From: Streptomyces sp. Je 1-79
GTDB taxonomy: Bacteria > Actinomycetota > Actinomycetes > Streptomycetales > Streptomycetaceae
Assembly (NCBI RefSeq): GCF_025195125.1
Contig: NZ_JAMGSL010000013.1
Location: 62,001 to 126,000 of the forward strand
Reading direction: 5' to 3'
Length of the DNA: 64,000 nt
Shown in pieces: positions 28,866 through 56,645 of the stretch (positions within the stretch are counted from its first letter, which is position 1; each line of letters begins with the position of its first letter). The notes beneath the pieces are model-generated. The model did no database searches. It had not been told where the DNA came from and saw only the letters and a list, made by a program, of their open reading frames with translations. The position numbers and the translations under genes are program-made.

Positions 28866-30382
28866 ACGGACGCGTCATCGGCGGCCGGTACGAACTGTCC
28901 ACCGTCATCGGCCAGGGCGGCATGGGCCAGGTCTGGACGGCGTACGACGGCCGGCTCGACCGCCGTGTCGCCGTCAAGCTGCTCCGCCCCGCCACCATGA
29001 CCGGCCCGGCAACCGCCGCGGAGGAGCTGCGGCGCCGCTTCGTGCGCGAGTGCCGGGTCACGGCGCAGGTCGACCACCCCGGCCTGGTCACCGTCCACGA
29101 CGCCGGCAGCGACGGCGACGACCTCTACCTCGTGATGCAGTACGTCGAGGGCGCGGACCTCGCCGACCATCTCGCCGAGCACGACCCGTACCCCTGGGAG
29201 TGGGCCGTCTCGGTCGCCGCCCAGCTGTGCGCGGTGCTCGCCGCCGTGCACGCGGTGCCGATCGTCCACCGCGACCTGAAGCCGCGCAACGTGATGGTGC
29301 GCCCCGAGGGCACCGTCACCGTCCTCGACCTCGGCGTCGCCTCCGTCCTGGACACCGACACCACCCGCCTCACCCACACGGGCTCGCCGATCGGCAGCCC
29401 GGCCTACATGGCGCCCGAGCAGGCCATGGGCGGCGCCGTCGGCCCGTACACCGACCTGTACGCGCTCGGTGTCCTGCTCCACGAACTGCTCAGCGGCAAC
29501 GTCCCCTTCGCCGGGTCGACCGCGCTCGGTGTGCTCCACCGCCACCTGTACGAGCCGCCGCTGCCGGTCCGCCAGCTGCGCCCCGAGGTGCCGGAGGCCC
29601 TGGAGGCGCTCGTGCTGCGGCTGCTGTCCAAGGACCCGCAGCACCGCCCCTCCAGTGCGCACGAGGTGTACGAGGCGCTGCTGCCGATGCTCCCCGCGCG
29701 CGGGGCCCCCGCCGGGCCGCTCGACCCGACCCGTCCCTTCCTGCGCCCGCACGCCCCCTGGCCCGACCGGGCCTCCGTCCCGCCCCCGCCGGTCGCGCCG
29801 CCGGTCACCCCGCCCGTCGCGCGCCCGGACGTGGCCGCCACGGTCGACGAGGTCAAGCGGCTCCTCGGGGAGGGCTCCCTCACGCGGGCCGTCGACCTCC
29901 TCGGCTCCATCCTGCCCGCGGCCGCCGCCGAGCACGGCGAGCACTCGTCCGTCGTCCGCATCCTGCGCAAGCAGTACGCGACGACCCTCATGGACGACGG
30001 CCAGTACCGCCGCGCCCTGCCGGAGCTGCGCCGCCTCGCGGAGGACCGCGCGGCGGAGGCCGGCCCGGCCGACCCGCAGACCCTGCAGTTCCGCTACGAG
30101 GCGGCCCAGTGTCTGGAGCAGCTGGGGGAGACGGCCGCCGCGCTCACGGAGTACCGCGCGCTGCTCCCGTTCGTCGAACACGGCGCGGACCAGGCCCGGT
30201 TCTTCGACATCCGCCGCCGGATCGGGAACCTGCTCCTGGCGATGGGCGACCACACCGCGGCCCACCAGCAGCTCCAGGCGCTGCTCTACGACACGGAGCG
30301 GGCGTACGGCCCGTACCACGCGCTTCCGACGGATCTGAGGCGCGCGTTGGCACGCCAGCAGCAGATGGGGCGTTTCGCCTGA
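28862..30382 (+). CDS. Serine/threonine-protein kinase with TPR-like C-terminus
   Basis: 506 residues, cytosolic. Kinase domain at about 8-270: G-loop (VIGQGGMGQVW), catalytic Lys in VAVKLL, HRDLKPRNV loop, metal-binding DLG (VLDLGVAS) in place of DFG, and activation segment GSPAYMAPEQ. The last ~190 residues are helical TPR-like (SLTRAVDLLGSILPAAAAEH). No TM or PASTA domain, unlike PknB. The GTG overlaps the upstream membrane gene's stop by 4 bp, so that protein may anchor or sense for it. Confidence 0.9.
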   Translation: MNGRVIGGRYELSTVIGQGGMGQVWTAYDGRLDRRVAVKLLRPATMTGPATAAEELRRRFVRECRVTAQVDHPGLVTVHDAGSDGDDLYLVMQYVEGADLADHLAEHDPYPWEWAVSVAAQLCAVLAAVHAVPIVHRDLKPRNVMVRPEGTVTVLDLGVASVLDTDTTRLTHTGSPIGSPAYMAPEQAMGGAVGPYTDLYALGVLLHELLSGNVPFAGSTALGVLHRHLYEPPLPVRQLRPEVPEALEALVLRLLSKDPQHRPSSAHEVYEALLPMLPARGAPAGPLDPTRPFLRPHAPWPDRASVPPPPVAPPVTPPVARPDVAATVDEVKRLLGEGSLTRAVDLLGSILPAAAAEHGEHSSVVRILRKQYATTLMDDGQYRRALPELRRLAEDRAAEAGPADPQTLQFRYEAAQCLEQLGETAAALTEYRALLPFVEHGADQARFFDIRRRIGNLLLAMGDHTAAHQQLQALLYDTERAYGPYHALPTDLRRALARQQQMGRFA

Positions 30383-30503: not shown

Positions 30504-30887
30504 ATGACGACCCAGCCGCCCGCCTCCCCCGAGCAGCCCCTCGCGCCCGCCGAGCCGGCGAAGAAGAAGCGCAACATAGGCAAGACGCTCCTGAGCATCG
30601 TCGTGGCGATCGCCGCGATCCTGTTCTGGAGGCTCGGCCTCCCCTACCTCACCGGCGAGGCGCCCGTGCACGCGAAGGCCGGCGAGTGCGTGACGGTGAC
30701 CGGCTCCGACACCGACCCCGAGGTCGAGAGCAAGCCGTGCGGCGAGAAGGTGCCCGACCTCTACAAGGTCGTCAAGGTCGTCGACGACACCTTCGACGTC
30801 GAGAAGTGCGGTGACGTGAGCGAGGTCGCGCTCGCGCAGCAGCTGGAGTCGGACAAGTTCGTGCTCTGCCTGAACCCCGTCAAGTAA
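30504..30887 (+). CDS. Small membrane-anchored protein, LppU/SCO3897-like
   Basis: 127 residues. Polar, Pro-rich cytosolic start, one TM at about 28-46 (LLSIVVAIAAILFWRLGL), then an extracytoplasmic domain with four Cys (GECVTVTGSDTD, KPCG, VEKCGDV, FVLCLNP) that look like two disulfides. The GECVTV...CG..A...V pattern resembles the LppU/SCO3897 family, unknown function. It is followed by a bidirectional terminator. Confidence 0.65.
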   Translation: MTTQPPASPEQPLAPAEPAKKKRNIGKTLLSIVVAIAAILFWRLGLPYLTGEAPVHAKAGECVTVTGSDTDPEVESKPCGEKVPDLYKVVKVVDDTFDVEKCGDVSEVALAQQLESDKFVLCLNPVK

Positions 30888-30904
30888 CGGGTCGTGAAGT
30901 AGTC

Positions 30905-30936
30905 GGAGGGCCGGACCCGGCGGGGTCCGGCCCTCC
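30905..30936. terminator. Bidirectional terminator
   Basis: A perfect 14-bp stem (30905-30918 with 30923-30936), 4-nt loop, between genes ending at 30887 (+) and 30944 (-). Confidence 0.9.
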
Positions 30937-30943
30937 GTGCGTG

Positions 30944-31597
30944 TCAGCCGTCGGTGGTCGCGAGCTTGGCGGCGAACCCGAGGAACAGTGCCCCGGCGCC
31001 GCTCGTCAGCCCGGCGGACAGCCTCCTGCGGCGGCGGAACTGCGCGGAGAGGTAGGTGCCGCCCAGGATGAGTACCGTCACGTAGCTCACGCTGATCACC
31101 TGGTAGATCACGGCGAGCAGGGCGAACGACAGGGCCGGATGCGGATAGGCCGGGTCCACGAACTGCACGAAGAAGGAGATGAAGAAGAGGATCGCCTTCG
31201 GATTGAGCAGGGTGATCACCAGCGAGCGCCGGAAGGGCCGCTCGTCCCGGCCCCCACCCGTGTCCGCCGTTTCCGTCTCCACCGGGTGATGGCGGCCGCG
31301 CCACATCCCCCAGGCCGCGCGGATCATCCCCAGCGCGATCCAGCCGAGGTAACCGGCCCCGGCGTATTTGATGACCGAGAAGATCAGCGCGTTGGTACGC
31401 AGCAGCGAGGCGAGCCCGGCCGCGGTACCGACCATCAGCAGAGCCTCTCCGACGAAGACGCCCGCCGCGGCGCGGTATCCGGTCCTAACCCCTCGGCGGG
31501 CGGCCACGGACAGGGTGTACAGCGAACTGGGGCCCGGGAGAAGAATGATGAGGAGGGTCCCCAGGGCATAGGTGGAGAGGTTGGTTACTCCCAGCAT
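30944..31597 (-). CDS. LysE/RhtB-family small-molecule exporter
   Basis: 217 residues with about six TM segments and the family start LGTLLIILLPGPSSLYTLSVA. The LysE/RhtB family exports amino acids and similar small polar metabolites. AAGGAG lies directly before a first ATG (31603), so the second ATG at 31597 with proper spacing is the better start. It follows the radical-SAM gene by 34 bp on the same strand, so it may export that enzyme's product. Confidence 0.88.
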   Translation of the reverse strand: MLGVTNLSTYALGTLLIILLPGPSSLYTLSVAARRGVRTGYRAAAGVFVGEALLMVGTAAGLASLLRTNALIFSVIKYAGAGYLGWIALGMIRAAWGMWRGRHHPVETETADTGGGRDERPFRRSLVITLLNPKAILFFISFFVQFVDPAYPHPALSFALLAVIYQVISVSYVTVLILGGTYLSAQFRRRRRLSAGLTSGAGALFLGFAAKLATTDG

Positions 31598-31631
31598 CGA
31601 CATCTCCTTCCGTCCGGTCCGCCCGCGGCGG

Positions 31632-33125
31632 TCATCCGACGTTGTTGCCGGTACGCACGTTGTGCGCGGTGACGAGTTCGTCCACGTCCGCGATCCTACG
31701 CAGCGCGTACTCCTCGGTGATGTGCGTGAAGTTCTCGGCCCAGGCGGCGGCGAGCTCCTCGATGTCGAGGAGGTCCTCCTCGCCGAAGCGGTCGTACAGT
31801 TCGGCGCGCCGCTCCGGGGTGATGGTGATGTCCAGGCCCGACAGGTACGCGTCGATGTCGGCACTGTCCTTGAAGAAGTTGGGCCGTTCGTAGTCGACGA
31901 GGAGGTCCCAGGCGGGGCTGTTCGGCAGCGGTATGAACCGCGAGAACTCCACGGAGGACAGCTCCACCTCGCCGAGCATCTGGCGGATCCCGTCGATGGT
32001 CCGGTCCAGGGTCCGGGCTCGCTCGCCGGGCGCTCCGGCGATGTAAGAGGCGTGCACGGAGATCCCGGCCTTGTTGAGCATCCGGATGGCCTCCAGGTTG
32101 GTGGCGTCGGTGGTCTTGTTCTTCCGCTGGGCCTCCAGCATCTCCGGGTCGGCGGCGTCAAGGCCGATGTTGACGCGGGTGACCCCGAGGCGGCGGCACT
32201 TGTCGACGTTGTTGCGCTTGGTGAGGCCGAGCGCCCGGGCGTAGACCATGACTTCGAGTTCGCCGTTGTCGATGCGCCGGCGCAGATGCGGGGGAGTGGC
32301 GTCGATCAGGGCGTCGACGTACCGGGGGCTGGCCGTGAAGCTGTCGTACACCTCGAAGAAGAGGTTGATGCCGAATTCCCGGTTGTAGACATCGATGGCC
32401 TTCCAGAAGCCGCGCGGATCGCCGGTGTTGACCCTGAGGTCGGCGATGCTGCAGTACGTGCAGCGCTTGTACCCGTTCTCGCAGCCACGGGCGTTGTTGA
32501 CGGTGATGGGGATGACCTTGTGGCTGTGGAGGTGCCCGAACTGCTCGCGGTAGTTCTCGGCGTAGATGTCGAGTTCGTCGCGTATGAATCCGAGGTCGGG
32601 GATCGTGTTGCGGTCGGTGAGGGCGTACTGGGGTGCGGGGTTGCGCACGGCGACGCCGTCACGACGGTGTACGAGTGAGGAGACGCCGGTCACGGGGCAA
32701 CCCTGGATCAGGGTGCCGATGAGTTCGACGAACGGCGTCTCGCCGACGTCGTTGGCGACGATGTAGTCGATCTCGGGCCTGTTGTCCAGGATCAGCTCGG
32801 GGAAGAACCCGGCGTGGTCGTCGCCCAGGACGACCTGGGCGCCGGCCTGCTTGGCCGTGGCCGCGATCTTGAGGGCTTCGCCATAGGTCGGCGTCAGTGC
32901 GCTGATCCCGACGACGTCCGGTGCGAAGTCCCGGACGGCCTGCTGTACCTGCGCGGTGTTGCTGATGCCCCCGTCGACCACCCGGAGCTCCACCTGCCCT
33001 CCGTAGGTGTCGCGCACGGCAGTGGCGAGCTGGACGACACCGATGTGCGGATAGCAGGCGTAGTTGGAGGCGTTTCCGTTGGCCGTGGGGTTGGGGGCGT
33101 TGGCGAGCAGCACCTTGAGCGACAT
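31632..33125 (-). CDS. B12-binding radical SAM enzyme with unusual Cys spacing
   Basis: 497 residues. Residues about 5-150 form a B12-binding-type Rossmann domain (PHIGVVQLATAVRDTYG, VVGISALTPTYGEALK, VVLGDDHAGFFPE). The radical SAM core follows: three Cys at 215, 222 and 225 (ARGCENGYKRCTYCSI), spaced CX6CX2C rather than CX3CX2C, then LFFEVYDSF and VNIGLDAADPEMLEAQRK. Such enzymes methylate or rearrange unactivated carbon. AAAGGA precedes the ATG. It forms a two-gene unit with the LysE-type exporter. No precursor peptide or other biosynthetic gene is visible; the 252-bp gap upstream (33126-33377) is less GC-rich than its surroundings and shows nothing firm. Confidence 0.85.
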   Translation of the reverse strand: MSLKVLLANAPNPTANGNASNYACYPHIGVVQLATAVRDTYGGQVELRVVDGGISNTAQVQQAVRDFAPDVVGISALTPTYGEALKIAATAKQAGAQVVLGDDHAGFFPELILDNRPEIDYIVANDVGETPFVELIGTLIQGCPVTGVSSLVHRRDGVAVRNPAPQYALTDRNTIPDLGFIRDELDIYAENYREQFGHLHSHKVIPITVNNARGCENGYKRCTYCSIADLRVNTGDPRGFWKAIDVYNREFGINLFFEVYDSFTASPRYVDALIDATPPHLRRRIDNGELEVMVYARALGLTKRNNVDKCRRLGVTRVNIGLDAADPEMLEAQRKNKTTDATNLEAIRMLNKAGISVHASYIAGAPGERARTLDRTIDGIRQMLGEVELSSVEFSRFIPLPNSPAWDLLVDYERPNFFKDSADIDAYLSGLDITITPERRAELYDRFGEEDLLDIEELAAAWAENFTHITEEYALRRIADVDELVTAHNVRTGNNVG

Positions 33126-33377
33126 CGATGTCCTTTCGTGGGCCAGTCCGACGCGCTGTGATCGTGCACTGCGAAGTCGATCTCTGTCAGCACCCCACCC
33201 GGCCCTTCAGGCCGCATCCTCCGGGACTCGAACGCAGGTCCGGGTGACCCCGCGTCACAAGCGTCTCCGCATGCCATCTCCGCTCCGCGAAAACAAAGCG
33301 GACGTTATGAATCCGGGAATTCGGCGGTCAACGCCCCACCGGACCCATCCACGCTCCCGAGGCCTTCCTTACGCTCC

Positions 33378-34132
33378 GTGACGCTCGAGGCGAGTTCCCG
33401 CCCAAATCCCCCGCCGTACTGTTGGCCGGAAACCGCCGCTTGGGAGTTCCGTTGCGGAGGGTGTTGCCTCGCCTTCCTCATCGCCGCCGCGTTACGGGAG
33501 CTGGAGGCGTACGGCTATCTCGCCAGGACCCTCGAACGCCTGCCGGGCGGACGGATGGCGACGCGCACGGTTTCGTACAACCGCCCGGGGATGGCGGAGT
33601 CGGGGTCCGATCCTGACGAACCGGATCCCGAGCCGGACCCGGAGGGCCCGGAGCGCCCCGAGCGGGACCCGGACGGCCCGGAACCGGAGGGCCCGGAACC
33701 TGCGCCTGCTCCCGAGCCCGGGCCCCGGGCCGAGCGGGCCCCGGTATCTCCTCCCGCGTCGCCGCTCCGCCTGCCGGACGGCCCGGCGGCGGACCTCCTC
33801 CTCGGCCTGCGGGCACGCGACCCCGCCTGCTGCTGTCGGTACGGGACGTCCAGCGACTGGCCCCCGGCGTCGACGCCTGGTTCGCCCTCGGCATCCAACC
33901 GGACGCCGTCCGACGCACCCTCACGGCGTGCCTCCCGGACGACCTGAGGCACCCTGCGGGGCTCCTCGCCCACCGCCTGACGGCCTTGCTCCCACCGCCA
34001 CTCCCGATCCAGGTGAAACCCCAGGCCCCGGACCCGATGCAGACCTGCGAGGACTGCGACCGCGCCTTCCGCGCCCCGGGACCGGGCCGGTGCCGCGACT
34101 GCGGACGCTCGGCGAGAAGGCTCGCAGCGTGA
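33378..34132 (+). pseudogene. Decayed HTH protein gene (5'-truncated, frameshifted)
   Basis: From 33378 the reading gives ALRELEAYGYLARTLERL, LPGGRMATRTVSYNRPG, an acidic Pro/Glu/Asp stretch and ADLLLGLRARDP. At about 33821-33825 one base appears missing; the +2 frame then continues LLLSVRDVQRLAPGVDAWF to a terminal CxxC...CxxC zinc-ribbon-like tail (CEDCDRAF, CRDCG) and stop at 34132. This is the layout of a Streptomyces winged-HTH protein family. The N-terminal HTH is missing or unrecognisable. A TTA codon lies at 33492-33494. A functional programmed frameshift is not excluded but nothing supports it. Confidence 0.7.
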
Positions 34133-34153
34133 CCTGAGAGCGTCGGCAGAGCA

Positions 34154-34807
34154 TCACGACGTGGGCGGGTCCAGCCGCGGCTGGAGCCGCACCTCGGTCA
34201 CGCTCACATCCTCCGGAGCGCCGAACGCCTCGACCATCACACCGGTGTCGATGTCGGTGATCTCCAGAGCCACGTGCTCGGCTCCCACGCGCAGGTCGAG
34301 CCTTGCCACGGGCTCACCCGAGAAGTCCGGCATGCGGTGGATCCGCGCCGCCGGGTAGTTCAGGCCCGCCAGCTTGCTCCGCAACTGCTCGTACGTGGCC
34401 GTGTCCGTCCCCGAGAACGCCTTGCTGATGCGCAGGCGGTGCCTCTGCGCGAGGCACTCCTCTGTCGAGGTCAGCGGCACCGGGTCGACCAGGATGGGCA
34501 GGGTGGAGTCGGGGCTCGGCTCCGCTGCCGCGGCGGCTGCCACGGAGGTCGACGCCACGCCGTCGACGCCGCCGGAGACGTCCGGCGCACAGCTCTGCGA
34601 GAAGAGGTCCGCCATCTCGAGGAACCGCGCCTCCGCGGTGTCGATCGCCGCGGCGGCGTTGACCATGGAGGTCTGACCGGCGGTGGCGTTCTGCGCGCCG
34701 AAGCCGGCCAGGACGACGACGCCCCCGAGCGCGGCCGACAACAAGGACTTCGGGAAGAGACTCGATCGCATGTCCGCACTCTGCGGACTGCCGACCACCG
34801 CCCACAT
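34154..34807 (-). CDS. Secreted protein of unknown function
   Basis: 217 residues. A signal peptide is visible at MRSSLFPKSLLSAALGGVV, with mature start after about residue 45. The mature part has two Cys (QSCAPD and EECLAQ), an Ala-rich linker and a C-terminal beta-rich region. Start at 34807 has AGGGG upstream; ATG at 34771 would put the signal charges first and is also plausible. I do not recognise the family. It is convergent with the decayed HTH gene. Confidence 0.6.
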   Translation of the reverse strand: MWAVVGSPQSADMRSSLFPKSLLSAALGGVVVLAGFGAQNATAGQTSMVNAAAAIDTAEARFLEMADLFSQSCAPDVSGGVDGVASTSVAAAAAAEPSPDSTLPILVDPVPLTSTEECLAQRHRLRISKAFSGTDTATYEQLRSKLAGLNYPAARIHRMPDFSGEPVARLDLRVGAEHVALEITDIDTGVMVEAFGAPEDVSVTEVRLQPRLDPPTS

Positions 34808-34906
34808 GAGTACCCCTACTCAATGCGCTTGCCCTCAAGCTCAGTTCAGCTGCTGAGGAGGGGCCGGGGTGCGAGTCGGTGCGGCCGGCGGCGCATACTC
34901 CGTGGC

Positions 34907-35476
34907 GTGACCCTCACGACCGAGACCGTCCGCACCCCCAGGCTCACCCTCCTTCCTCTGGCCGTCGCGCACGCCGAGGAGATGGCCGGTGTGCTCGGCG
35001 ATCCGGCGCTCCACACCTTCATCGGCGGTACGCCGCCCACCCTGCCGGAGCTCCGTGCCCGCTACGAGCGGCAGACGGCCGGATCGCCCGAGGCCGGGGT
35101 CTCCTGGTGCAACTGGGTCGTCCGGCTGGACGACGAGAGCCGTCTCGTCGGCACGGTCCAGGCGACCGTCCGTGCGCCCGACCCGGCGACCGACCCGGCG
35201 GGCGACCCCGTGGCCCGTCACGGCGCCGGGACCGCCGAGGTCGCCTGGGTCGTCGGGACGCCGTGGCAGGGGCGCGGGATCGCCACCGAGGCGGTCCGGG
35301 GGATGATCGGCCTGCTCACCGCCCACGGGGTGCGGACGTTCGTCGCGCACATCCACCCCGGCCATGCCGCTTCCGCCGCCGTCGCCACCGCCGTCGGGCT
35401 CACGCCCACCGACGTGTGGCACGAGGGCGAGGTCCGCTGGCGGCTCGACACCACGTCGAGCCGGAATCCGCTCTGA
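34907..35476 (+). CDS. GNAT N-acetyltransferase (RimJ/RimL-like)
   Basis: 189 residues with the RimJ/RimL order: TVRTPRLTLLPL at the start, CNWVVRLDDESRLVGTVQAT, then the acetyl-CoA motif AEVAWVVGTPWQGRGIATEA (V/I-x-x-x-x-Q/R-G-x-G-x-A). Substrate may be an N-terminus or small amine. GTG at 34907 with a CATACT -10-like box at 34894-34899 suggests a leaderless transcript. One base separates its stop from the convergent YfhO gene. Confidence 0.85.
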   Translation: MTLTTETVRTPRLTLLPLAVAHAEEMAGVLGDPALHTFIGGTPPTLPELRARYERQTAGSPEAGVSWCNWVVRLDDESRLVGTVQATVRAPDPATDPAGDPVARHGAGTAEVAWVVGTPWQGRGIATEAVRGMIGLLTAHGVRTFVAHIHPGHAASAAVATAVGLTPTDVWHEGEVRWRLDTTSSRNPL

Positions 35477-35477
35477 C

Positions 35478-37871
35478 TCAGCCCGTCCGTGCGAGCGCTT
35501 CCGCCCGGACCTCCGCTCGCGCCGGCGGCTGCGCGGACGGGCGCCGTCCCCGCCCTCCCCGCCACCGCGCCCACCCGCACAGGAGGACCGCCGCGCAGGC
35601 CCCCAGGCCAAGACCCGCCCGCAGCCCCGGCGGCCGGAAGTCGCAGCTCACCGACGTGCGGCCGTCGGCCCGCAGGGCCACCAACCCCCCGTACGCGTCC
35701 GCCGGCCGGCCCTCGCAGGTCCAGCCCGCGATCCTCGGGGCAGCGACCACCACGGTCCCCTTCGTCCCGGGCGGGAGTTCCGCGCGGATGCCGCCGCCGG
35801 TGACGTCGATCGAGGTCGCCGCCTTCGCGCGCAGGCCCTCCACCGCCGCCGTCAGCCGCTGCCGGTCCAGGCAGCCGACCTCGTGGTCACGACCGCGGTC
35901 CCCCGTGAGGACCACTTCCGTGCCCGCTGTCCCCTGGACGCCCAGCGAGGTCATCGCGGCCCGCCGCTTCGGCATCTCACCGCTCATCCTCACCGGCGCG
36001 CCGCCCGCGCCGAGCCGGGCCGTCCCCCTGAAGTCGGGCGCCCAGAGGAAGACCTCGCTCCCGACCGGGCAGGCGGCCCCCTTCCCCGGCAGCGTGTACA
36101 CGGACGCCCCCAGCAGCATCTCCTGGTTGCGGAACGGAGAGGCCCCGTACCGCGGTTCGGCGGCACCCTCCGGGCGCACCGTCACCAGCGGCAGTACCGG
36201 TCCCGTCCGTACGAGCGCGTCGCCCCGCCACCGCGCGCCGACGGCGAACAGCGCGTCCGTCACCGGGTTGTCCAGGCTCTGCAGATTGCGCCCGCGGGAC
36301 GTCCAGCCGCCGCCGAGCGAGGCCAGCGTCGTCGTCAGCACGGAGGGCGTGTGGCTGCTGTAGTACGCGGCGCCCTGGCCGCCGAAGAGCAGCGGCTCGT
36401 TGCCGGTGATCTGCTCGCGGCCGGAGTCGGTGCGGTACGCGGGCCAGCCGTCGGCCTCGGTGAGCGCTTCGGTCCGCCGGTCCTGCTCGGCGCCCCAGGC
36501 CGGGTAGTCGTCGAGCCGGCCGAGGCGCGCCCGGTCCGCGTACGCCGTGGTCGCGGCCGCCTGTCCGACGAGCGCCCCGGCCAGGAGCACCGCCGCCACC
36601 ACCGGGGGCCCGCCGCGTGCGGCCAGCCACAGCGCGCCCGCCGCCGCGGCCAGTCCGAGGGCGAACAGCGGGTACGACCAGCCGGTCACCAGCTCGCTCG
36701 CCACCGCGCCGACCCCGGCCGCCGCCACCACGCCCACCCCGCCGAGCAGCGCGCGCCGGCCGGGCCAGCCGTACGAGAGGCCGGTCCAGGCGGCGAGGAC
36801 GAGGACCCCGGAGAGGACGAACGTCTGCCGGTACGGGCTGCCGTTGGGCGTGGCGAAGACATGCCACACCAGATGCGTCGGCGCCCACTGGAGCGACAGC
36901 GCGACCGCGACCGCGAACCCGGCCCACAGCCACCGCTCGCGCCGCGGCACCTCGCGGTGGAAGAGCAGCGCGCCGGCGAGCAGCAGGGTCCCCGTGCCCA
37001 GGAAGGCGGCGGGCGTGGAGAAGTCGTACGTCGCCGGGAGGAGCCGGGCGAGGAAGTCGGCCCAGCCGGCCGGCTGGAACTCGTTGGTCCAGCCCGGGTA
37101 CGCGTGCGTGGAGCCGAGGAACACCGGCACCAGGACCGGCGCGGCGAGCCCGATGCCGAGCAGCACGGTCACCACCGCGCGGACGACCACCCGGACGCGC
37201 AGCTCACGCGCGGCCGCGAGGCGGACCAGGAGCACCAGGGCGGCCCCGATGGTCGCCATGTACGCCGTGTAGAAGTTCCCGACCCAGCACAGCGCGACCA
37301 CCAGCGGGCCGACAAGCGGCCGGCGGCCCCGCCGCACCCACTCGCCGACCAGGCACAGCAGCGGGAACGCGATCAGCCCGTCGAGCCACATCGGGTTGTA
37401 GGTGGCCTCGATGACCGACCAGCCGCACAGCCCGTACGACGCGCCGAGCACCGCCGCCGCCCACCAGGGGCCCGGCCGCAGCCGCAGCAGCGCCACGGTC
37501 ATGGCGGCCGCGGCGGCCGCCGTCTTCAGGACCGTGACGGCATGGACCGCGTACTCGATGTCCTCGCGCGGGAAGAGCGCCACCAGGAGCGCGAACGGGC
37601 TGCCCAGATAGGTCCCGAGGTCGGGCAGGAAGCTGGTGCCCCAGCCGGACTGCCAGTTGAGCAGCAGCCCGCCGTCGCCGCGCCCGTGCAGCAGGTCCCA
37701 CAGATGGGCGTGGTACGGGACGAACTGGTTGGCGAGGTCGTTGACGCCGCGGCGTTCCGGCCCGAAGGGGAAGGTGCGGGCGACCGCGTTCCCCGCGCAC
37801 ACCGCGAGCGCCGTGAGGAAGGCGGCGAGGGCGGCGGCGCGGCCCACGGCCGGTCTCGTCTGAGCAGGCAT
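35478..37871 (-). CDS. YfhO-family membrane glycosyltransferase-like protein
   Basis: A 797-residue protein with about 12-13 TM segments followed by an extracytoplasmic C-terminal domain. It resembles the YfhO family: N-terminal NDLANQFVPYHAHLWDLLHG, YNPMWLDGLIAFPLLCL, QTFVLSGVLVLAAWTG. In Bacillus YfhO takes sugar from an undecaprenyl-phosphate carrier made by CsbB and adds it to a cell-wall polymer outside the membrane. A CsbB-like glycosyltransferase is divergently encoded at 37988, consistent with the same two-step route. The polymer target is not known. Confidence 0.85.
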   Translation of the reverse strand: MPAQTRPAVGRAAALAAFLTALAVCAGNAVARTFPFGPERRGVNDLANQFVPYHAHLWDLLHGRGDGGLLLNWQSGWGTSFLPDLGTYLGSPFALLVALFPREDIEYAVHAVTVLKTAAAAAAMTVALLRLRPGPWWAAAVLGASYGLCGWSVIEATYNPMWLDGLIAFPLLCLVGEWVRRGRRPLVGPLVVALCWVGNFYTAYMATIGAALVLLVRLAAARELRVRVVVRAVVTVLLGIGLAAPVLVPVFLGSTHAYPGWTNEFQPAGWADFLARLLPATYDFSTPAAFLGTGTLLLAGALLFHREVPRRERWLWAGFAVAVALSLQWAPTHLVWHVFATPNGSPYRQTFVLSGVLVLAAWTGLSYGWPGRRALLGGVGVVAAAGVGAVASELVTGWSYPLFALGLAAAAGALWLAARGGPPVVAAVLLAGALVGQAAATTAYADRARLGRLDDYPAWGAEQDRRTEALTEADGWPAYRTDSGREQITGNEPLLFGGQGAAYYSSHTPSVLTTTLASLGGGWTSRGRNLQSLDNPVTDALFAVGARWRGDALVRTGPVLPLVTVRPEGAAEPRYGASPFRNQEMLLGASVYTLPGKGAACPVGSEVFLWAPDFRGTARLGAGGAPVRMSGEMPKRRAAMTSLGVQGTAGTEVVLTGDRGRDHEVGCLDRQRLTAAVEGLRAKAATSIDVTGGGIRAELPPGTKGTVVVAAPRIAGWTCEGRPADAYGGLVALRADGRTSVSCDFRPPGLRAGLGLGACAAVLLCGWARWRGGRGRRPSAQPPARAEVRAEALARTG

Positions 37872-37987
37872 GATGGTGTGAATATGCCAGTACGGAACGC
37901 GAAATGGTGATCGAGCGGGGCCAGTTCACTCAATGGTCGCCTCGCCGTCACGTTTCGAATCGGCCGGAGACATCCGAGTGGGTTGTC

Positions 37988-44770: not shown

Positions 44771-45632
<862 letters not shown>

Positions 45633-56431: not shown

Positions 56432-56513
56432 GCCCGGATGGTGGAATGCAGACACGGCGAGCTTAAACCTCGCTGGCCTTCGGGCCGTACCGGTTCGAGT
56501 CCGGTTCCGGGCA
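56432..56513 (+). tRNA. bldA: tRNA-Leu(UAA), bldA
   Basis: 82 nt. Acceptor stem GCCCGGA pairs with TCCGGGC, discriminator A. Anticodon stem GCGAG/CTCGC with loop CTTAAAC: anticodon TAA (56464-56466), decoding UUA. TTCGAGTCC gives the T-loop, and there is a long variable arm (GGCCTTCGGGCC). This is the rare-codon tRNA that gates Streptomyces development and antibiotic genes carrying TTA codons. Five TTA-bearing genes or remnants lie in this window. No CCA is encoded. Confidence 0.97.
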
Positions 56514-56645
56514 CAGCTCCCCGCCATCGACCGTGGCGCGCTCCCTAACGATCTCGGAAAGATCCTCCCCGAGCACTAGGGAGTTTCTTTTGCTTCCGCA
56601 TTACTCTTGACGCAAGGCCGCGCAGTGCGGCCATGGAGGAGTGAG

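Follow-up and report, generated by a model that had tools for sequence, protein, structure and literature searches.

A stretch of 64,000 nucleotides from Streptomyces sp. Je 1-79 (contig NZ_JAMGSL010000013.1, positions 62,001 to 126,000; referred to as the window) encodes on its minus strand a cobalamin-binding radical S-adenosylmethionine (SAM) enzyme and, 34 nt after its stop codon, a LeuE-type amino-acid exporter (Table 1). The enzyme matches the Pfam models of both the B12-binding domain (PF02310, 53.9 bits against a cut-off of 32.1) and the Radical_SAM domain (PF04055, 43.2 bits against 29.5), and the three cysteines at the start of the latter would be expected to hold a [4Fe-4S] cluster in a protein binding SAM and cobalamin. 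The exporter gene starts with an ATG at 31597 preceded by the ribosome-binding site AAGGAG, and its product, taken as a 214-residue version begun three codons later, scores 279.5 bits with NF008201, the LeuE model, whose cut-off is 165. By this curated cut-off, it is a predicted exporter of the LysE superfamily belonging to the LeuE leucine-efflux family.

The two genes have moved between Streptomyces genomes as a block. Enzymes of the window's own kind (clade A, 52-85% identity) were found at eight Streptomyces loci, namely the window, G064, S. eurythermus, S. griseoluteus, S. toxytricini, CB00316, S. albus subsp. chlorinus, and BR123, the exporter being paired with the enzyme gene in 8/8 and the enzyme being broken in the last two (2/8). 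DNA similarity to the five intact relatives begins at 30909-30954 and ends at 33125-33138, so that its limits fall on the exporter stop and the enzyme start or no more than a few dozen bases away. Comparison of neighbours by our own gene calling, over up to 8-10 kb per side, left the enzyme-exporter pair as the only genes common to all eight loci, with weak matches to common families shared between some pairs of loci. In S. toxytricini, a phosphoenolpyruvate mutase/isocitrate lyase-type gene lies upstream of the cassette (L004 2014-2811, minus strand) and was not found beside the other carriers, and in S. albus subsp. chlorinus (L009), whose sequence record measures 7.5 Mb, about 28 kb separate the decayed cassette from the beginning of the record, which may place it near a chromosome end.

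Four out of four fetched relatives of the host (G012, G006, G019, and G025) lack the pair and retain the neighbouring genes. The empty site of G012 brings the flanks 30887 and 35623 together at the distance given in Table 1, in G019 and G006 about 230 and 975 bases, respectively, separate 30361-30370 from 35613-35614, and in G025 the right-hand match starts only at 37917. Occurrence is patchy, with enzymes of clade A and the related clade B described below present in 4/246 and 6/392 Streptomyces genomes in two overlapping draws. At 66.8%, the guanine plus cytosine (GC) content of the pair falls below the window value of 71.8%, and values this low occur in 1.5% of 1237 sliding windows of equal length. 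The lower GC content proposed in the initial annotation was thereby confirmed, and its suggestion that the region may have been acquired is supported by the empty sites, the patchy occurrence, and the unrelated flanks. Tn3-type transposases occur within 3 kb of the pair in CB00316 (by Pfam) and in the clade B strain G166 (44% identity to that of CB00316), and IS66-type elements are annotated near the pair of Paraburkholderia sabiae.

Table 1. Features of the enzyme-exporter locus in window coordinates.
Feature	Position	Strand	Remark
Cobalamin-binding radical SAM enzyme	31632..33125	minus	497 aa, CX6CX2C
B12-binding domain PF02310	32724..33062	minus	enzyme residues 22-134
Radical_SAM domain PF04055	31992..32489	minus	enzyme residues 213-378
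Codons of the presumed cluster cysteines	Cys215 32481-32483; Cys222 32460-32462; Cys225 32451-32453	minus	computed from coordinates, Cys215 checked in DNA
LeuE-type amino-acid exporter (PF01810, NF008201)	30944..31597	minus	217 aa
DNA block common to carriers	30954..33125	minus	five intact relatives full length; L009 from 32649 inward only, L010 in pieces
Stretch absent from relative G012	30888..35622		flanks about 116 bases apart in G012
Decayed gene with split frame, related to a 286-aa Streptomyces gene	33480..34123	plus	pieces 33480-33587 and 33824-34123

A decayed helix-turn-helix gene had also been proposed next to the pair. The decayed gene is real, since the 286-residue gene matched by its pieces is open in Streptomyces G004, but its helix-turn-helix identity is unconfirmed, the G004 relative having no Pfam match. 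The stretches 34154-34807 and 30504-30887 were likewise assigned to no Pfam family. No cobalamin riboswitch was detected over the pair at the Rfam gathering thresholds, at which the sole match in the window is a cyclic di-AMP riboswitch (44771-44946, plus strand). A tRNA remnant suspected by eye upstream of the enzyme was rejected, ARAGORN giving only a tRNA-Leu at 56432-56514 in the window.

The exporter of the cassette is, judging by its phylogeny, a dedicated paralogue apart from the other LeuE of the host. The host and G064 each carry two LeuE, one in the cassette and one ordinary copy. In a tree of 38 rows, the eight cassette exporters and a copy from G099 form one group (100/100) apart from 29 other Streptomyces LeuE, which comprise 27 of the best-matching genome hits together with the second LeuE of the host and that of G064, hence the closest ordinary copies and not a random sample. 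This tree and the second LeuE copy of the host rule out a housekeeping LeuE lying beside a stray enzyme. The exporter resembles LeuE in passing its cut-off and differs from the ordinary Streptomyces LeuE in its separate clade and its radical SAM partner gene.

The enzyme itself is distinguished by the spacing of its cysteines, which the initial annotation had placed at residues 215, 222, and 225 as CX6CX2C instead of the standard CX3CX2C; both positions and spacing are correct. All three residues are invariant in a ten-row alignment of homologues (two rows being apparently one and the same S. eurythermus protein), and every row reads CX6CX2C except Galbibacter orientalis, which reads CX5CX2C; the motif is kept in the relatives from Streptomyces, from a Woesearchaeota metagenome-assembled genome (MAG), and from a deltaproteobacterial MAG. 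Because homologues keep the long loop, the long spacing is a property of the family, and a local insertion in the Cys motif, raised beforehand as the alternative, is ruled out. The host and Streptomyces G064 together gave 37 PF04055 matches, some of them two halves of one protein; two are the cassette enzymes, five were unread, and 30/30 with loci read CX3CX2C (the spacing script preferred a CX3CX2C match where present, and the printed segments place the motif where expected). The spacing is therefore unusual for this genome, but less remarkable than had been implied: in the part of PMC8992657 available, CX3CX2C is described as usual, not obligatory, and exceptions as not unusual in radical SAM enzymes, while the accessible text of PMC4389238 gives CX5CX2C for HmdB and CX14CX2C for QueE.

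Enzymes with such enlarged loops constitute a subfamily of three clades. In one tree, 13 long-loop enzymes (CX5 to CX15) are separated from six CX3CX2C relatives by a branch with support of 100/100. In a second tree, 11 long-loop proteins are separated at 100/99 from six outgroup rows, namely five CX3CX2C enzymes and OxsB, which groups with the other five and is a partial sequence. Outgroups in these trees are few and non-random, and several long branches were flagged by the tree tool. Clade B is about 30% identical to the window enzyme and carries the motif RGCARxKxPCxFC, again CX6CX2C. Its members come from Streptomyces G166, G1019, and a plasmid of Rhizobium phaseoli; the Rhizobium enzyme is split between two frames and is 60.5% identical to that of G166 across phyla. 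Clade C is 24.6-25.4% identical to the window enzyme (three members compared), with spacings counted by eye as CX8CX2C in P. sabiae, Embleya, S. anulatus, Streptomyces NBC_00637, Kitasatospora, and G177, and as CX15CX2C in S. chartreusis. The G177 enzyme has both Pfam domains, with Radical_SAM exactly at the cut-off.

Carriers are sparse wherever genomes were surveyed. Clade A was found in 1/346 Actinomycetota genomes, which was the host itself (E 1e-60), in 1/296 genomes of the phylum and 1/269 of the family of Galbibacter, in both cases Galbibacter itself, and in the phylum of the deltaproteobacterial MAG 2/46 genomes matched, one being that MAG and the other a weak match (G1331). A clade C query matched 1/225 genomes of the host's family (G177). 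Plasmid and phage searches, with 22 of 54 records listed and nine opened, yielded three long-loop enzymes (two with LysE, one in a nonribosomal peptide synthetase (NRPS) cluster) and six CX3CX2C enzymes. A phage origin was rejected, as no relative occurred among 92 pattern matches in viral contigs and the phage collection gave only two records, both of phage SF3, whose enzyme is distant and has the CX3CX2C spacing. A B12-binding radical SAM gene, a thymidylate kinase gene, and a NUDIX hydrolase gene stand in the same order on a Streptomyces plasmid (L129) and in phage SF3 (L133).

Pairing with an exporter recurs in the other clades. LysE-type exporters accompany the clade B enzyme in 3/3 loci, those of Rhizobium and Streptomyces being about 30% identical. 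In clade C, LysE is found in one locus out of seven (P. sabiae, where enzyme and exporter genes overlap) and an EamA exporter in another, on a plasmid of S. chartreusis NBC_00851, where a tRNA-editing protein, the CX15CX2C B12-binding protein, and the exporter are encoded in a row (L141 11487-14534). The nearest NCBIfam model of this editing protein is YbaK and the exporter matches TIGR00950 (carboxylate/amino acid/amine), both below cut-off; the arrangement suggests that the product may be mischarged onto tRNA. Three of the five clade C loci that have no recognised exporter lie inside annotated NRPS clusters on plasmids (Embleya, S. anulatus, and Streptomyces NBC_00637; L137, L139, and L140), and these share the NRPS cluster, two phosphotransferases, and genes annotated as urease gamma and alpha. 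The Kitasatospora locus resembles them in gene order, by our own gene calling only, and in G177 a second radical SAM gene adjoins the enzyme. Hence, the exporter linkage originally assumed holds for a LysE-type gene in 8/8 clade A and 2/2 clade B Streptomyces loci, but clade C mostly lacks it. The sample is small and does not amount to a test of enrichment.

Comparison with characterised enzymes places the fold more closely than the function. None of the 16 NCBIfam families listed (BchE, HpnJ, KedN5, PhpK, HpnR, ApyD, BzaD, and others) reaches its cut-off for the enzyme, the best being BchE with 89.8 bits of the 481.35 required. Searches of PDB sequences with single enzymes gave no match (one at a threshold of 0.01, another at 0.1); by profile, the closest solved sequence is OxsB (E 8e-18), the profile also containing one CX3CX2C relative, from Azoarcus. 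An AlphaFold model built on eight alignment rows reached a mean predicted local distance difference test (pLDDT) score of 83.5 and a predicted template modelling score of 0.85. Foldseek and VIA were run with this model, and the twelve best VIA rows comprise AprD4, OxsB, TsrM, CysS, MgmA, and TokK only (best Z of 25.8, 24.0, 23.6, 22.9, 22.6, and 21.6, respectively), with alignments of 365-429 residues and 15-19% identity in the best alignment of each, followed by MTAB, RimO, and MiaB at Z of about 17. The likeness to the six lies in a B12-binding domain before the radical SAM domain, three cluster cysteines, and the overall fold; the spacing differs, being CX3CX2C in TsrM and, in the profile alignment, CX4CX2C in OxsB, against CX6CX2C here. 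Because the six nearest structures differ in chemistry, the modelled fold leaves the type of reaction unfixed.

Taken together, these observations are read here, with moderate confidence evenly balanced between acceptance and doubt, as a mobile two-gene cassette that makes and exports a non-proteinogenic amino acid. This reading rests on the domains, the conserved cysteine triad, the exporter family, co-transfer, the second exporter copy, and the recurrence with other exporters; from these we infer cofactors, substrate, reaction, export, and toxicity. Briefly, a [4Fe-4S] cluster bound by the three cysteines would cleave SAM to a 5′-deoxyadenosyl radical. This radical would abstract a hydrogen from a small metabolite of common occurrence, with a free aliphatic amino acid as the likeliest candidate, and the resulting carbon radical would then be methylated from methylcobalamin or otherwise rearranged. 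The LeuE-type exporter would pump the product out, combining release with protection of the producer, as unexported product would be mischarged or inhibit its own maker. An amino-acid substrate is favoured by the exporter types, the NRPS setting of clade C, and the tRNA-editing partner, and a small aliphatic one is likeliest because the exporter is LeuE-type. The suggestion of the initial annotation that the unit serves an amino-acid-like metabolite is thereby a reasonable one on the strength of these features of the window and its relatives, yet it stays at the level of inference.

Several observations weigh against the cassette reading. No LysE-type gene was found by tblastn with two LysE-type queries, other exporter families not being sought, beside the three non-Streptomyces clade A enzymes, which come from Galbibacter, the deltaproteobacterial MAG, and the Woesearchaeota MAG (the last on a contig of 5.5 kb). 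The place of the exporter after the enzyme is taken in Galbibacter orientalis by a gene of the leucine-carboxyl-methyltransferase type (L007 9650-10486). Five of seven clade C loci have no recognised adjacent exporter, and every exporter examined from the other clades scores below its NCBIfam cut-off. The P. sabiae and S. chartreusis enzymes have only the B12-binding domain in Pfam, with no Radical_SAM match at 0.01, and the Cys loop (residues 216-224) of the window enzyme was modelled at pLDDT below 50. LeuE-type genes are common as such, being found in 78/101 Streptomyces genomes at 1e-40. Finally, one of six opened CX3CX2C relatives precedes AzlCD, an amino-acid exporter type, so that pairing with such an exporter is not confined to long-loop enzymes. 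The gene in question, of the B12-type radical SAM class, stands directly before genes annotated as AzlC and AzlD (branched-chain amino-acid exporter type) on a Burkholderia stagnalis plasmid (L136 8151-10973), in a cluster that contains additional radical SAM genes as well as a peptidase of the insulinase type.

The fate of the two genes where the cassette is decaying bears on the alternatives. The exporter is open in S. albus subsp. chlorinus, BR123, and Rhizobium phaseoli, where the enzyme is broken, and in G099, where no enzyme match was found within the 11 kb fetched around the exporter; between BR123 and S. griseoluteus, the exporter has a dN of 0.019 and a dS of 0.18, a pairwise dN/dS of about 0.1. 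Among paired loci, no broken exporter was found beside an intact enzyme. Survival of the exporter alone agrees with a role in immunity, four cases being few. It suits protection better than secretion of a signal, the function that would apply if the product were a signalling molecule and not a toxin, which we consider unlikely. A precedent exists in PimT of Streptomyces natalensis, an exporter of the RhtB family that is linked to a secondary metabolite and secretes an inducer, the PI-factor; it is reported (PMC2698837) to export homoserine, serine, and homoserine lactone along with an inducer. Near the Rhizobium clade B locus, at a distance of about 3 kb, there are also LuxR-type and autoinducer-synthase genes. 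The carriers have no regulator in common, however, and the tRNA-editing protein of S. chartreusis suits mischarging better than signalling. The three broken enzymes beside open exporters likewise suggest that the exporter alone is worth keeping, which speaks against a tolerance cassette in which a toxic analogue of an amino acid is inactivated by the enzyme and the exporter provides further resistance. Mobility, patchiness, shortness, and co-transfer of exporter and enzyme would all suit such a cassette, but detoxification by a radical SAM enzyme would in our judgement be costly and the NRPS clusters of clade C point to biosynthesis, making this explanation very unlikely.

That the substrate is no amino acid but a nucleotide, sugar, or lipid, as for OxsB and AprD4, with the LeuE relative exporting the product, is distinctly unlikely. 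Such a substrate would accord with OxsB as the closest solved sequence, through a profile that held one CX3CX2C relative, and with AprD4 as the highest structural Z; set against it are the position of OxsB outside the long-loop group, in a tree whose six outgroup rows include its partial sequence, the recurrence of amino-acid-type exporters (LeuE, other LysE/RhtB, and EamA with TIGR00950, the last two below NCBIfam cut-offs), and the three clade C enzymes in annotated NRPS clusters. Adjacency by history without shared function is highly improbable, although the missing LysE-type neighbour of the three non-Streptomyces clade A enzymes and the abundance of LeuE-type genes in Streptomyces are what it would predict, since strongly differing LysE-type exporters follow the enzyme in clade A, in clade B of both Streptomyces and Rhizobium, and in P. 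sabiae, and since clade A enzyme and exporter move as one block.

A cassette that makes and exports a modified amino acid has a functional parallel in antimetabolite systems of the 4-formylaminooxyvinylglycine (FVG) type, which are multi-gene clusters; the window cassette has a single radical SAM enzyme. The proposed logic of a modified amino acid combined with a LysE exporter is shared, the LysE-family exporter here adjoining the putative biosynthetic gene. FVG is a small modified amino acid for which LysE-family exporters are needed for survival, the loss of both being lethal, according to the text available of PMC6039020. C-methylation of a valine by a cobalamin-dependent radical SAM enzyme has been reported for DscE of the discodermin pathway, which acts in vitro on peptide valine; in contrast to the enzyme proposed here, DscE works on the finished peptide of an NRPS pathway, and no exporter pairing is described in the part of PMC12858407 seen.

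A wider view is offered more tentatively, as a possibility that we would sooner doubt than assert: the long-loop enzymes may form an unrecognised family of mobile minimal antibiotic cassettes, in which an antimetabolite would arise directly from a proteinogenic amino acid by the action of one enzyme, and both secretion and immunity would be provided by an exporter that has been exchanged from lineage to lineage (LeuE, another LysE type, or EamA) and is once joined by a tRNA-editing protein. These cassettes would have crossed between Actinomycetota and Pseudomonadota, some strains keeping the immunity gene only. Both gene families are already known; what is new, as far as searched, is the grouping of the long-loop enzymes into one subfamily and the finding that they are repeatedly paired with exporters of amino-acid type, in Streptomyces as a mobile unit. 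In the literature, excluding most subscription journals and all bioRxiv preprints, neither the subfamily nor the pairing appears in a title or abstract among the matches listed. A two-gene unit is probably too small for biosynthetic-cluster finders aimed at large assembly lines. If the cassette reading is true, strains with the exporter alone would correspond, for a small molecule, to bacteriocin loci that have kept only immunity genes, and one enzyme and one pump would suffice for making and secreting a bioactive modified amino acid. The family would then also lend itself to a tractable in vitro test of how cluster chemistry responds to an enlarged Cys loop, and could give access to new C-modified amino acids.

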